From NCBI GenBank assembly GCA_020726335.1, contig DYSU01000023.1:1-35901 (forward strand): a DNA stretch of 35,901 bases, read 5' to 3'. Made by a program: the position numbers and the translations under genes. Shown piece after piece: positions 26,219 to 35,901 of the stretch (position 1 is its first letter; every line of letters starts with the position of its first letter). The notes beneath the pieces are model-generated. The model did not search any database and was not told where the DNA came from. It worked only from the letters and a program-made list of their open reading frames with translations. Source of the DNA: Thiomargarita sp. (lineage in GTDB: Bacteria; Pseudomonadota; Gammaproteobacteria; Beggiatoales; Beggiatoaceae).

Positions 26219-28729
26219 TTATGGTGCATTACCATAGTCCAGCAATTGAAAATGGCCGTTTTTCCAACCCAAATTGACCCAATAATTTTGGCCTTGTGCT
26301 TGGATACAAGGCAAGGTCACGCTGTTATTTTGTGCGTTGTATTGAATCTCACAATGGGGGGAAAAATAATCCACGGCCAATGGTTGGGCTTGGGTCACTT
26401 GCAAGCCATTGTTCAGCGTGGCATGAAATTGTTGGTCTGCCACATTGACGCAAGGCAATTCCAATTCGCCTGTGTCTGCACGGTAATGACCTTGGCACAC
26501 ATCGGGGCTAAAAGGGCTGTCACGCTCAGGGGCATAAGGAGGCAATTCACATTGGTTTTCTTGCCATAAGCCGCCGCGTTTGGCACATTCTTCAAGGATT
26601 TGGCACAAGTCCACATGGCTTTCATCGCATTGAGCGGTGTCAAAATGGATGACGGCCACATCTTGGTTTAATTGAGCCAGCGCATTGGCTTTTATCGCAT
26701 CTTCAGTCACTGAAAACACAAAATCATCCATAAACACGGAACGTTTGACATAGGAATTGGCTTGGGTCCACCAGTTTCCACAACTGTAGCGAAAATTTTG
26801 CATACTTTCAGGCGCAACATGGGGTACACCGCCGATCAATTCAAAACCTTTGGTGGTGTCAATTTTATACACCAACAAGCCGCTGAAAGTCATTAAATCT
26901 GGGTAATACGGGTCTGGCTCAGGTTTGGCCAGCCCTTTTTCGCAAATGGTCATCGGAATGGCCAGCAGTTTTTGGGGCGCAAAATAGTTGAAAGCCAGAT
27001 GGTTGGTCACCGCTTCTGAACTTGAACCACGGGTGCCAATCACTTCTTTATGCAATAACAGCGGTTTTTTCATGTCAGAGACATCGAACAATTGCAAGCT
27101 AATCCCTTGAAATAACGAGAAATTGCCTTCATCGCTGGCATCATAGCCGATGCTGAGCAAATGTTCTGCATCCAACGGGTGGATGTAGGTGGAGAAGCCC
27201 GGAATTTTCAATTCGCCCGCAATTTTAGGGTCAGTGGGTTGCGATAAATCGAACACAAACAAGGGGTCAGTTTTTTTGAAAGTGACCACATAGGCTTTCT
27301 CGCCGACAAAGCGCGCAGAACGAATGTCTTCACCCACCGCGATGTTGTCTACTTGGCCTGTGGGTTGCAGTTCTTTGCCATTTTGTTTTAATACGGTCAA
27401 CGTGCTGTGAACTTTTTCGTTGCCCAGTTGTCCCGTGGTGGTGGCGATGCGAAAATGGTCTTGGTATTCATCCATGGAAAATTGATTCAAGACCCGCCCT
27501 TTGACTTCGCCGCTGGCAACGTATTCGGTGCTGATGGGGTTGGTTTTGAGCGCAAATTTATAAAGGGTGGACACTTCTTTGCCTGTTTCCCAATGGTTGT
27601 CATGGGGCGCGCTTAAATACAACGCTGAATCAGACGCATAAATCGCCCCTGATTTGCCATACAAGCTGGTGGTTTGTAAAGCATCGCTTTGGTTTAAATC
27701 CAAACTGACCAAAGCAATGAACTGTTGGCTGTCATCGGTGGGTGCGCGATAGGCTTGTTCGCAATCAACCAGCGTTTGATTTTGTTGGCGGCTGTGGTCA
27801 TAAACATGGGGCAATAAATCATCGTTGCCAACGGCTTTAATCACGGCTTCATTTTTGGCGGTCAATTCATCAAACAAGCTTTCTATTTTGCCGCTGGATA
27901 AGGTTTCTTTGCCATCGCAATGAGGTTGCAATTGGGAGTCATCGGGCCAATATTGCAAGCCTTTGATTTCTAATTTAGGGAACACCACCGCTGAATACAC
28001 TGCGTTATCAACGCGGCGTGCATTCAAATAACTGCCTGAAAAAGTCCACTGTTGCATCACCTGCGGTTTATTGACATCGCTGATGTCGAGCAAGGTCATT
28101 TTCAGCGGTAAGCCATCGCCGTTGAATGCGCAATCATAGCCATAAGTGCATTCTTGCGGTTGATAAACGGGCATAAACGCCAGTCGTTTATCATCTTGAT
28201 TTTGGGCTTGCACATCCAGCGATGAATAAATCAGCACTTTATTTTGATAAACAAACATTTTTTTTGCTTGGCCTTCGATGTCCAATTGTGCAATTTCACG
28301 CGCTTCTGACACAGGCCACGCTTGGACGATGCGAAATTTATTTTTGGCCAGAACATAAATGTATTTGCCATCGTTTTGGATGAAATCGGCTTCAGCCACA
28401 CCCGCCACTTGGTTGTTGGTGTCCGAATATTCGCTGGCTTGGTCATCACCGCCTTGGGTGCTGGTTTCAGCGGCGGGGGCGGGGGTAATGGCAGTCACCA
28501 CCATGTCTTTATTCAACATCACATCATCATAATAGCGGTAACGGCAAACACCCCAGCGCAATGCGTCTTGTTTGTTTTGCGCCATTTGTTGTTGCATCGC
28601 TTTCAGTTGTGCCGCTTTGACTTCAGCCAACAACGCATCGCATTGCATGGGTTGCAAGGTGTCCGCAGAGCTGTGGCAAGCAAACAACAACAGCCCGCAA
28701 TAAATCAGTTTTTTGCTCAGCAAATTCAT
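26219..28729 (-). CDS. Secreted C-terminal beta-propeller family protein with Cys-rich tail
   Basis: 836 aa. The signal peptide is near residues 5-22 (LIYCGLLLFACHSSADT); LFAC could be a lipobox, but Phe at -2 is unusual. Residues about 85-690 resemble the bacterial secreted beta-propeller family (Pfam Beta_propel), with repeated blade-like motifs such as VAGVAEADFIQNDGKYIYVL and SARFVGEKAYVVTFKKTDPL. The tail is Cys-rich and ends with two copies of a short module having identical cysteine spacing (745/760 and 793/808). Function is unknown; a scaffold or binding role at the cell surface is likely. GAGGTGA precedes the ATG. Confidence 0.75.
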   Translation of the reverse strand: MNLLSKKLIYCGLLLFACHSSADTLQPMQCDALLAEVKAAQLKAMQQQMAQNKQDALRWGVCRYRYYDDVMLNKDMVVTAITPAPAAETSTQGGDDQASEYSDTNNQVAGVAEADFIQNDGKYIYVLAKNKFRIVQAWPVSEAREIAQLDIEGQAKKMFVYQNKVLIYSSLDVQAQNQDDKRLAFMPVYQPQECTYGYDCAFNGDGLPLKMTLLDISDVNKPQVMQQWTFSGSYLNARRVDNAVYSAVVFPKLEIKGLQYWPDDSQLQPHCDGKETLSSGKIESLFDELTAKNEAVIKAVGNDDLLPHVYDHSRQQNQTLVDCEQAYRAPTDDSQQFIALVSLDLNQSDALQTTSLYGKSGAIYASDSALYLSAPHDNHWETGKEVSTLYKFALKTNPISTEYVASGEVKGRVLNQFSMDEYQDHFRIATTTGQLGNEKVHSTLTVLKQNGKELQPTGQVDNIAVGEDIRSARFVGEKAYVVTFKKTDPLFVFDLSQPTDPKIAGELKIPGFSTYIHPLDAEHLLSIGYDASDEGNFSLFQGISLQLFDVSDMKKPLLLHKEVIGTRGSSSEAVTNHLAFNYFAPQKLLAIPMTICEKGLAKPEPDPYYPDLMTFSGLLVYKIDTTKGFELIGGVPHVAPESMQNFRYSCGNWWTQANSYVKRSVFMDDFVFSVTEDAIKANALAQLNQDVAVIHFDTAQCDESHVDLCQILEECAKRGGLWQENQCELPPYAPERDSPFSPDVCQGHYRADTGELELPCVNVADQQFHATLNNGLQVTQAQPLAVDYFSPHCEIQYNAQNNSVTLPCIQAQGQNYWVNLGWKNGHFQLLDYGNAP

Positions 28730-32147: not shown

Positions 32148-32357
32148 TTAAGCAGCTTCAACATTTTCAGCTTGCGGCCCTTTGTTGCCCTGAATAATGT
32201 TCATGGTTACTTTTTGTCCTTCATGCAATGTTTTACGACCTGCGCCACTGATGGCACTGTAGTGGACGAACACATCTTTGCCACCTATATGTTCAATGAA
32301 TCCAAAACCTTTTTCATCATTAAACCACTTAACAATACCTTCGACTCTATTTGACAT
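32148..32357 (-). CDS. CspA-family cold-shock protein
   Basis: 69 aa from the ATG at 32357, preceded by GAGTAAG; the frame is open to 32396 but the family starts at MSNRVEG. RNP1 KGFGFIEH and RNP2 VFVHYSAI are both present in the single OB-fold domain, with [14 protein letters not shown] at the N-terminus. It binds single-stranded RNA/DNA and melts mRNA structure, cytoplasmic. The long structured leader and strong terminator mark an independent single-gene unit. Which Csp paralogue (cold-induced or constitutive) cannot be told. Confidence 0.95.
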
Positions 32358-32602: not shown

Positions 32603-35488
32603 ATGAAATTAAGCCACACCCTGCTGACCAGTTTATTGGGTTTTTATGCCTTAAACTGCCAAGCCATTGATTACCAAATTAATTTAACCATAAGCCCCGA
32701 AAAATCCCAATTGACCGCCGTGGCCCACATCAGCGCGCCCAATCTTGACGACATCACCTTGGATTTAACCGATTTAACCGCAGTCCAGATTGCAGGCAAA
32801 CCCCTATTATCTGATCACATCAAAGTGGCCTTGCCCGTTGAAATTCACTATCAAATCAATAACAAAGATTTAATCAACCCGACAAACGTGGTGTTATTGG
32901 ACAACTGGTATCCACAGCCACAAGGTTTGGCACACTATCAATTAACCGCCAACTTACCCGCTGATTTTAAAGCAATTTCTGAAGCCGATAACAGCACAGT
33001 TCAAGCACAAAACCAACGCAAAACCCACGTTTTCCATTTTGACCATCCGCTTGACCACCTGACCTTTATCGCCTCCAATCAATACCAAGTGGAACAGCAA
33101 AACCACAACAATATCCGCCTGCACAGTTATTTTTTGCCCGACAACGCACCCTTGGCCAAAACCTATCTGCAACGCAGCATCGACTATTTACGGCTTTATG
33201 AACAACAACTGGGCGCATACCCTTATCAACAACTGAATCTCGTCGAAACCCCACTGCCTGCGGGTTCTTCCATGCCAACCTATACTTTATTGGGCAGTAA
33301 AGTGATTCGCCTGCCGTTTATTCTGGACAACACCATTTTAGACACCTCATTGGGGCATGAAATTTTGCATCAATGGCTGGGCAACAGCGTCTACATTGAC
33401 CACTCACAAGGCAACTGGGCAGAAGGCTTGACCAATTACTTGGCCGAACACTTTTTTGCCGCCCAACGACAACAAGACGCGGCCTATCGCCAACAAATCA
33501 TGGCCGATTACCAAGCCTATGTCCATCAACCAATGGCGGTCAAAGACTTTCGCCAACGGCAAAACAAAGCACAAAGCGCGGTGGGCTATGGCAAAGTGGC
33601 CATGATATTTCACCAACTCAAACAACGTTACGGCGAAAAACAATTTCTCCAAACCCTGCGCCAGCTCATACAAAAAAACACAGGGAAAAAACTCAATTGG
33701 CAACAAATTCAACAACAATTTGAACAAGATACAGGCGATAATTTAAGTGGCTATTTTCAACCATGGCTCAACGGCCAAGACATCCCCAACCTACAAGCGA
33801 CAGCCGTCAAAATCAACGTTCAACGCGGCCAAATCCATGCTCAATTTGAACTGCGCCAAGACAACGACACACTTTACCCCCTGTCCGTGCCGCTGACGAT
33901 TCACACCGATGGCGGCATTATCCAAAAAACCTTACAAATAACCCAGAAAAAACAAACGGTTGACCTCATTTTACCCGCACGCCCCCATCACATGGTATTG
34001 GATGAAAATTATGACCTCATGCGCCAGCTCAGCCCCGCCGAAACGCCATTGAGCCTAAACCGTCTATTGGGTGATGATGCCGTACTGGCCGTGGTTGAAC
34101 CTGCGCAACGTGCTGATTATCAAGCCATAATCAATGCTTTAACGCCCAACGCCACCCTTGTCAGCCCCGATAAAATCACCTTTGCCCAAATGCAAAAACA
34201 CAGTTTACTGCTGTTGGGCAAAAATTCCCTTCTAAAACAACTGTTTGCCCACGAAAACCACCGTGGCCTGTGGTTACAAGTCAATGCCAACCCCTATAAT
34301 GACAAAAAAATCATCGTATTAGCCCAAACTGACAGCCCCACACAAACCCAAGCCGCACAACGCAAACTCAGCCATTACGGCCCCTATCAAACCCTGCAAT
34401 TTAACCAAGGCCAATTGGTGCAAAAACAAAAACCCCAACCCCAACGCGGCCTCTTAATATTTGAACAAACGCAAAACCATGTATTACAACCACAAAAAAC
34501 CCAAACCATCAGCCAACTGATCAAACAACTGCAAAATCAACAAATCATCTACATCGGCGAACAACACGACCAAATGGCGCACCACCTCAACCAATTGGCC
34601 ATCATCCAAGGCTTGGCCCAAACGGGAAAAAAAATCGCCGTCGCCATGGAAATGTTCCAACGCCCCTACCAAACGGCGATTGACGACTATATAAGCGGCA
34701 AAACCGATGAAGCCCAATTTCTCAAACAAACACAATACTTTGACCGCTGGCGATACGATTACAACCTATACAAACCCATCATTGACCATATAAAACAACA
34801 ACATATACCCCTGTTAGCCCTCAACATTGCAGGCGACATCAACCGCAAAATCGCCCACCAAGGCATCGCCGCCCTAACCCAAGCCGAACAACACCACCTG
34901 CCGCGCCAGCTTGACTTCAGCAACCGCCGCTACCAAAGCGACTTATTTGAAATCTATCAACAACATAAAAGCAAAAACCCCTTTGCCTACTTTCTCCAAG
35001 TGCAAACCGTTTGGGACGAAATCATGGCGCAAACCGTGGTTGACCACCAAAAACAACACCCCGACACCACCCTCATCGTATTGGCGGGCAACGGCCATTT
35101 ACAACAACGTTACGGCATCGTCAACCGCGTACAACGCCAATTGCCCGAAGTGCGCCAACAAACCATACTCCAAGATGAAGACATCAGCCCCAACCGCGCC
35201 GACCACGTCATTTTCAGCCAACCGATTGAATTTTCAGAAGAAATCAAACTGGGCGTTTATCTTAATGAAGAAAATCAACAACTTAAAGTTAAACAAATCA
35301 ACCCCCAGAGCTTGGCCGCCAAAATCGGCATCCAACAGGGCGACATCCTGTTGCAACTCAACCAACAGCCGTTGACCTCTGTGGCGGATTTAAAAGGGGC
35401 GTTATACCACCAGCCAACGGCCAAACCCCTACAAATAATGTGGAAACGCAAAAACAAAAAAATGCAAAAAACAGTGAAAATACCCTAA
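32603..35488 (+). CDS. Secreted M1-like metallopeptidase - ChaN - PDZ fusion protein
   Basis: 961 aa. Signal peptide (about 1-21). An M1-type N-terminal beta domain is followed by a gluzincin core with HEILH (252-256) and a probable third zinc ligand Glu274 in NWAEG. No GAMEN exopeptidase motif is seen; AGSSMPTYTLLG occupies that region. Residues about 615-860 are a ChaN (DUF399) domain: IIYIGEQHDQMAHH, VAMEMFQRPYQ, FDRWRYDY, VLAGNGHLQQRYGI. ChaN in Campylobacter is a heme-binding iron-uptake lipoprotein. Residues about 880-958 form a PDZ domain (AAKIGIQQGDILLQLN). The combined protein could bind and degrade exported hemoproteins or peptides, but that is inference. Leucine codon use (more CTG/CTC/CTA) and a C-rich strand differ from neighbours. 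Confidence 0.82.
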   Translation: MKLSHTLLTSLLGFYALNCQAIDYQINLTISPEKSQLTAVAHISAPNLDDITLDLTDLTAVQIAGKPLLSDHIKVALPVEIHYQINNKDLINPTNVVLLDNWYPQPQGLAHYQLTANLPADFKAISEADNSTVQAQNQRKTHVFHFDHPLDHLTFIASNQYQVEQQNHNNIRLHSYFLPDNAPLAKTYLQRSIDYLRLYEQQLGAYPYQQLNLVETPLPAGSSMPTYTLLGSKVIRLPFILDNTILDTSLGHEILHQWLGNSVYIDHSQGNWAEGLTNYLAEHFFAAQRQQDAAYRQQIMADYQAYVHQPMAVKDFRQRQNKAQSAVGYGKVAMIFHQLKQRYGEKQFLQTLRQLIQKNTGKKLNWQQIQQQFEQDTGDNLSGYFQPWLNGQDIPNLQATAVKINVQRGQIHAQFELRQDNDTLYPLSVPLTIHTDGGIIQKTLQITQKKQTVDLILPARPHHMVLDENYDLMRQLSPAETPLSLNRLLGDDAVLAVVEPAQRADYQAIINALTPNATLVSPDKITFAQMQKHSLLLLGKNSLLKQLFAHENHRGLWLQVNANPYNDKKIIVLAQTDSPTQTQAAQRKLSHYGPYQTLQFNQGQLVQKQKPQPQRGLLIFEQTQNHVLQPQKTQTISQLIKQLQNQQIIYIGEQHDQMAHHLNQLAIIQGLAQTGKKIAVAMEMFQRPYQTAIDDYISGKTDEAQFLKQTQYFDRWRYDYNLYKPIIDHIKQQHIPLLALNIAGDINRKIAHQGIAALTQAEQHHLPRQLDFSNRRYQSDLFEIYQQHKSKNPFAYFLQVQTVWDEIMAQTVVDHQKQHPDTTLIVLAGNGHLQQRYGIVNRVQRQLPEVRQQTILQDEDISPNRADHVIFSQPIEFSEEIKLGVYLNEENQQLKVKQINPQSLAAKIGIQQGDILLQLNQQPLTSVADLKGALYHQPTAKPLQIMWKRKNKKMQKTVKIP

Positions 35489-35662
35489 AAACCCTGAAAA
35501 ATCAATGTGTTCGGTAGATGGCCTACTGATTCAGTCCAGTTTATCGTAACTTATTGAAAAATAAGGAAACGTTCTTGAGCAAAAAAGGCAAAAAAGCATG
35601 ATTTTCTCGGTAGAAAAAAAAGGCTTGACTTTTACCAGAAAAATCAGCAGAATGCGCTTGCA
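35489..35662 (+). promoter_or_regulatory. CRISPR leader with candidate promoter
   Basis: A-rich gene-free stretch directly before the first repeat. TTGACT (35625-35630), 17 nt, CAGAAT (35648-35653) gives transcription starting near 35660, at the edge of the first repeat (35663). Because the repeats end in ATGAACC on this strand, as in type I-E arrays read 5' to 3', this side is the leader. Confidence 0.6.
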
Positions 35663-35901
35663 GTATTCCCCACACACGTGGGGATGAACCGACGCGCAAC
35701 AAACCCATTGCCGCTTCCCGAACGTATTCCCCACACACGTGGGGATGAACCGTACGGCCCGTTGTAGAGTCCCAGCGGGACTGAGTATTCCCCACACACG
35801 TGGGGATGAACCGCGCAAAACTTCCAGCCATGCTTTTGTTGAAAAGTATTCCCCACACACGTGGGGATGAACCATCTCCATCGAAGACCGAGACAGCGGC
35901 T
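35663..35901 (+). CRISPR. Type I-E-like CRISPR array, leader end (4 repeats, truncated by window)
   Basis: Four repeats start at 35663, 35724, 35785 and 35846, an exact 61-bp period. The repeat begins GTATTCCCCAC and ends GTGGGGATGAACC; the CCCCAC/GTGGGG arms form the crRNA stem and the 28 core bases are identical in all four. The 29th base is G after repeats 1-3 and A after repeat 4. Spacers of 32 nt: 35692-35723, 35753-35784, 35814-35845, plus a cut spacer from 35875. Length, stem and the ATGAACC(G) handle are type I-E (Escherichia-like). No cas gene lies in the window. Confidence 0.97.

Follow-up and report, generated by a model that had tools for sequence, protein, structure and literature searches.

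What could a protein do in which an M1-like metallopeptidase, a ChaN domain, and a PDZ domain are joined in one putatively exported chain? The question is raised by an open reading frame (ORF) at positions 32603 to 35488 (+ strand) of the window, i.e., the whole stretch of 35,901 nucleotides of Thiomargarita sp. DNA that was analyzed.

Domain organization of the fused protein

Analysis of the locus revealed a single ORF of 961 amino acids (aa) with an ATG start. The entire ORF (32603..35488, +) was identified as an M1-like/ChaN/PDZ fusion from Pfam matches and joined relatives. It encodes, in this order, a signal-peptide-like start, an M1-like gluzincin, a conserved unannotated segment, and then the ChaN and PDZ domains. 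The Pfam matches for M1, ChaN, and PDZ each lie beyond the curated cutoff of the respective family, and the profile search thus confirmed the three domains named in an initial annotation of this DNA. The single chain that it had described is borne out by the one 961-aa ORF and by joined relatives in the family, and its export signal by the N-terminus MKLSHTLLTSLLGFYALNCQA, which resembles a signal peptide by eye and in a crude script. A chance ORF is ruled out by the domain matches and the conservation.

The putative signal peptide comprises aa 1 to 22 (32603..32668, +), with a predicted cleavage site, and the sequence suggests export to the periplasm or the cell surface. Residues 1 to ~180 resemble the beta domain of M1 enzymes in a weak HMMER match to M1 structures, and this domain was placed at aa ~23 to 180 (32669..33142, +), with putative boundaries. 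The M1-like gluzincin catalytic region follows at aa ~181 to 400 (33143..33802, +). Within it, PF01433 (Peptidase_M1) matches aa 250 to 388 with an E value of 1e-10 and 42.1 bits against a cutoff of 27.7, and an alignment profile (A1) retrieved M1 aminopeptidases with a top E value of 4.2e-16. No M61 family was among the Pfam matches of the window protein at E values up to 1.

Between the M1 and ChaN parts lies a segment of ~135 residues (aa ~490 to 625; 34070..34477, +) that is conserved and unannotated. It contains H591-Y592, kept in 58/58 alignment rows, and no Pfam family was found for it at E values up to 5 with the four proteins tried. The ChaN domain (Cofac_haem_bdg, PF04187; aa 639 to 843; 34517..35131, +) was matched with an E value of 1.2e-59 (2.6e-61 in a second search) and 202.3 bits against a cutoff of 27.7, as well as by the ChaN structure 2G5G. 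The PDZ domain (aa 883 to 960; 35249..35482, +) is HtrA/DegP-like and was recognized by PF13180, PF17820, and PF00595 and by DegP chains. The PDZ_2 match covers aa 883 to 960 with an E value of 4.2e-8 and 33.8 bits against a cutoff of 27, and the nearest relatives in PDB searches were DegP and DegQ. AlphaFold2 models predicted from the window sequence alone had mean pLDDT values of 34.7 (aa 22 to 625) and 38.6 (aa 627 to 961) and were set aside.

Active site of the M1-like domain

The M1-like domain carries the zinc motif HEILH (aa 252 to 256; 33356..33370, +), whose residues H252, E253, and H256 are present in 59/59 rows of the M1-like alignment. The third zinc ligand, Glu274 (33422..33424, +), is likewise found in 59/59 rows, and its spacing from HEXXH is X17 in 58 rows and X16 in one. 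Tyr329 (33587..33589, +), also present in all 59 rows, occupies what we take to be the position of the M1 catalytic tyrosine. The stretch equivalent to the GAMEN motif is GSSMPTYT (aa 221 to 228; 33263..33286, +), in which Pro225 takes the place of Glu. HMMER alignment with ERAP1 and ERAP2 set GSSMPT on GAMEN, pairing the Met residues with each other and Pro with Glu; at the position of the GAMEN Glu, 57 of the 59 rows have Pro and two have Ala.

In the available text of PMC13039773, the M1 zinc site is given as HEXXH-X18-E, and the GAMEN Glu is described as binding the N-terminus of the substrate. Since the zinc and catalytic residues are invariant and the GAMEN Glu is missing, these M1-like enzymes are probably active but not ordinary aminopeptidases. 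Because of the Pro or Ala at this position, the domain was classed as M1-like and kept apart from the M1 aminopeptidases. The other M1 protein of the same genome (867 aa) has an intact GAMEN motif.

Distribution and phylogeny of the fusion

Within the order, 42 genomes were searched, every one from the family of the window. The fusion was found in 19 of them and was always joined: 17/19 genomes encode the M1 and ChaN parts in a single open frame, 2/19 have them split across overlapping frames, and in none of the 19 matching genomes are the halves two separate, intact genes. Joined relatives occur in other genera of the family, with 38 to 45% identity over long matches. The join is therefore not an assembly artifact, an explanation ruled out by M1-ChaN linkage in 19/19 matching genomes. 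The frame-split copies were found in G022 (L019 and L029) and G026 (L017), where sequencing error and decay are indistinguishable. Another fused relative, L016 (G015), has a long charged insertion within its ChaN domain.

Phylogenetic trees were computed by a "quick" method without bootstrap and took in 17 fused loci, with one frame-split copy included and the other excluded. In the M1-like tree (59 rows), the 17 fused loci form one clade (SH-aLRT, 100). The fused loci are one clade in the ChaN tree (75 rows) as well (SH-aLRT, 97), and there they share a branch with 23 rows that adjoin an M1-like gene and three PDZ-bearing rows that do not. Outside the family, no match covering both halves was present among the matches listed from samples of the class and the phylum. 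A search of genome contigs with the window protein gave a distant ChaN in a Comamonas metagenome-assembled genome as the sole match, and a plasmid search gave 25 matching records, none of which covered more than 80% of the query.

Separate M1-like and ChaN genes in other genomes

A search of 369 genomes of the class yielded 93 matching genomes at 1e-12, and the counts rest on 89 listed genomes, that of the window being excluded. They score as M1 any match starting before residue 600, a rule that also lets in some ordinary M1 enzymes, and as ChaN also ChaN without PDZ. Among the matches listed, both halves occur in 59 genomes, the M1-like half only in 9, and ChaN only in 21; 276 genomes of the class have neither (co-occurrence Fisher value of 3.5e-40, computed ignoring relatedness). 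The halves lie within 3.5 kb of each other in 36 of the 59 listed genomes with both. These adjacent pairs are spread over 22 families, against ~0.2 expected by chance, and comprise 21 divergent pairs, 13 tandem pairs in the order ChaN-M1, and 2 in the order M1-ChaN; divergent pairs need not be cotranscribed. The halves are not adjacent in 23/59 listed genomes, being on different contigs in 20 and far apart on one contig in 3. In a search of the phylum (398 genomes, of which 59 matched), both halves are listed for 11 genomes and, counted by eye, are adjacent in 2/2 genomes of the same class and in 0/9 of other classes. Because of the latter count, the link between M1-like and ChaN genes is best supported within the class. 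On plasmid pAZKH of Azoarcus sp. KH32C, the genes annotated as "ChaN family lipoprotein" and "M1 family aminopeptidase" overlap by 4 nt; AZKH_RS23795 and AZKH_RS23800 make up this pair.

The window protein is thus a fusion of a conserved gene pair, since it is joined within the family, forms one clade, and has its halves as separate but often adjacent genes elsewhere. Because relatives so often have the halves as neighboring genes, the two probably work together, and their common substrate would more likely be peptides or proteins than heme. The statement of the initial annotation that ChaN proteins normally act alone was too strong. A PDZ survey of 2019 (PMC6411480) had, according to the part of its text available, already catalogued ChaN-PDZ two-domain proteins (37 proteins in 37 bacteria), and an M1-like gene lies beside ChaN-PDZ in the 36 of 59 listed genomes. 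Its hunch that the combination of domains matters was right.

A second kind of partner was observed in the M1-like alignment. Twelve of the 59 rows are ~1,100 aa long, and all 12 bear an M28 peptidase and PDZ tail (Pfam domains were displayed for two of the 12), which is present in 0/30 short and 0/17 fused rows. M1, M28, and PDZ lie on one chain in L072 (4950-8330, −), L055 (275-3598, +), and the 10 other long rows; in L072, a PD40/TolB-like gene adjoins the M1-M28-PDZ gene. Since M28-PDZ tails occur besides ChaN-PDZ, the M1-like domain is joined to two different PDZ-bearing domains of predicted hydrolase type.

Active site of the ChaN domain and proposed function

The ChaN domain shares with TIKI hydrolases (RRSP, EreC, and Tiki) the ExH motif, a Glu 30 residues on, and a final His. 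The corresponding residues are E653-x-H655 (34559..34567, +) and E683 (34649..34651, +), each conserved in 74/74 rows with letters, and H832 (35096..35098, +), conserved in 75/75 rows. This 2His/2Glu set is invariant in every examined ChaN row with letters, and the E653-E683 spacing of 30 is the same as in RRSP. RRSP is described as a TIKI endopeptidase whose 2His/2Glu motif is needed for Ras cleavage (PMC6254334, available text). The fold of Campylobacter jejuni ChaN (2G5G) is shared by profile (E value of 1.7e-22). Because this heme-binding protein has the same 2His/2Glu set, the set does not separate a hydrolase from a heme binder. Unlike the window protein, C. jejuni ChaN is a stand-alone protein without a PDZ or M1 partner and has Lys at the position of W804.

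W804 (35012..35014, +) lies 28 residues before H832, where Arg stands in EreC and RRSP by spacing and alignment. In the available descriptions of these two enzymes, the conserved Arg is 28 to 29 residues before the last His; it is reported to be essential in RRSP (PMC6254334) and, for EreC, is located at the transition state. The position is Trp in 58/60 PDZ-bearing rows and Arg or Lys in 11/15 rows without PDZ. The window protein was not classed as an active TIKI hydrolase because W804 replaces the conserved basic residue; it further differs from the TIKI hydrolases in being PDZ-linked and, as predicted, exported.

We tentatively propose, with a confidence somewhat short of an even chance, that the window protein works as an exported enzyme of the envelope in peptide or protein processing and arose from a fused pair of M1-like and ChaN-PDZ genes. 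In such an enzyme, the PDZ domain would hold substrate C-termini, the M1-like domain would cut peptides by some means other than the usual N-terminal anchoring, and ChaN would be a second, TIKI-type hydrolase or a substrate holder. Recognition of C-termini can fairly be expected by analogy with HtrA-type PDZ domains; peptidase activity and the division of labor among the domains are what we infer from residues and architecture. The M1-like domain is read as the cutter because of its invariant residues and its peptidase partners, and the role suggested for ChaN follows from membership in the TIKI superfamily and is weakened by W804. Evidence against the proposal is given by the nonadjacent halves in 23/59 listed genomes, by the absence of adjacent halves in the nine genomes outside the class, and by W804.

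In a wider form, which we regard as possible but doubtful, ChaN-PDZ proteins with M1-like genes would not carry heme but would supply the second active site to an envelope peptidase that is widespread and made up of two enzymes. Its cutter would be the M1-like protein lacking GAMEN, its other enzyme a TIKI hydrolase of the Trp type, and M28 would sometimes be added as a third; in one bacterial family the two would be fused. If this two-enzyme reading is true, the label "heme-binding uptake" is wrong for a large branch of ChaN; the heme-binding annotation carried by most ChaN proteins goes back to a single structure. The repeated link of ChaN-PDZ with M1-like and M28 domains, together with the fusion, is a testable reason to re-examine this branch, and in the single-chain fusion both activities could be assayed at once. 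The data also point to a GAMEN-less branch of M1-like proteins with its own unannotated C-terminal segment.

Alternatively, ChaN could be passive, binding a substrate or cofactor or aiding assembly, with the M1-like domain as the sole enzyme. We judge this unlikely. It would account for the Trp that replaces the Ere/RRSP Arg in nearly all PDZ-bearing rows, given the essential and transition-state roles reported for that Arg, and PDZ and ChaN could jointly read the substrate; however, the invariance of E653, H655, E683, and H832 exceeds what a bare scaffold needs, yet it is found in the heme binder too.

Heme binding and quality control as alternatives to the proposed processing enzyme

The capture of heme or hemopeptides suggested by the initial annotation has no support of its own, as ChaN also belongs to the TIKI superfamily and its partners are peptidases (M1-like, sometimes M28). 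We consider it quite improbable that ChaN takes heme while the M1 part trims hemoproteins or hemopeptides. According to a structure paper of 2006, the heme ligand of ChaN is reportedly a tyrosine. Tyr723 of the window protein, conserved in 17/17 fused rows, aligned with a Tyr of 2G5G, but it is the only one of the eight Tyr residues of the 2G5G stretch that is Tyr in the window protein. The genome has three TonB-receptor matches. Heme binding by C. jejuni ChaN is cited in the available text of PMC7979712 and PMC7412671, and a Bacteroides ChaN lipoprotein is reported to have fallen together with heme-uptake proteins (PMC10102347, available text). Against this, the M1 and M28 peptidase partners need no heme.

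The neighbors of the gene pairs were compared with those of a ChaN control, with gene calls that are crude, above all in GC-rich genomes. For 100 of the 118 called neighbors of 33 pair loci, no heme or TonB family was among the 25 of 192 Pfam families listed; PD40 was found in four neighbors and FemAB_like in three. The control consisted of 67 of the 74 called neighbors of mostly stand-alone ChaN genes, mostly without PDZ (19 loci with the ChaN gene found, of 20), and equally had no heme-uptake family among the 25 of 116 Pfam families listed. The absence of heme families near the pairs says little because the control neighbors lack them likewise. In a crude script, a lipobox-like Cys was scored in 9/33 separate ChaN genes and in 1/16 fused genes, the sole fused case being the atypical ALNC of the window protein itself.

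General envelope quality control, in which PDZ would capture damaged proteins and two hydrolase domains would degrade them with no dedicated substrate, is very improbable: the PDZ domain is nearest DegP/DegQ and an M28 exopeptidase is fused in relatives, but the patchy presence in 19/42 family genomes is unlike a housekeeping role.

Comparison with known systems

The ChaN-PDZ proteins of the EreA-ChaN-like PDZ family (PMC6411480) correspond to the C-terminal third of the window protein, with an HtrA-like PDZ domain after ChaN. The available text of that survey treats them as nonproteases and uncharacterized and mentions neither an M1 partner nor a fusion. M61 glycyl aminopeptidases and M28-PDZ exopeptidases, as described in the same text, likewise combine a metallopeptidase and PDZ in one exported chain; unlike the window protein, they have no ChaN domain, and M61 of the PF05299 type is unmatched in the window protein. 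With M1 metallopeptidases such as aminopeptidase N, ERAP1, and NosP, the protein shares the Pfam M1 match, HEXXH with the third Glu, and the position of the catalytic Tyr. It differs from them in the replacement of the GAMEN Glu by Pro (Pro or Ala in relatives), in X17 instead of X18, and in the attached ChaN-PDZ (M28-PDZ in some relatives). No description of an M1-ChaN pair or fusion was found in the literature searched, whose coverage left out most subscription journals and bioRxiv preprints. ChaN-PDZ proteins are known by sequence, and the M1 link and the fusion are new as far as we found.

Genomic surroundings of the fused gene

The ORF list shows no same-strand gene overlapping the fused ORF or closely following its 3' end, and for this reason the gene looks monocistronic. 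Upstream, on the opposite strand, lies a gene for a 69-aa cold-shock (CspA-like) protein (32148-32357, −), the family being named by eye. A large beta-propeller protein is encoded at 26219-28729 (−; PF09826, Beta_propel, 2.7e-137). Downstream, a CRISPR array at 35662-35874 runs onward to the contig end, with four repeats of 30 nt listed, a period of 61, and repeats that are 97 to 100% alike. The repeat presumably resembles those of type I-E.
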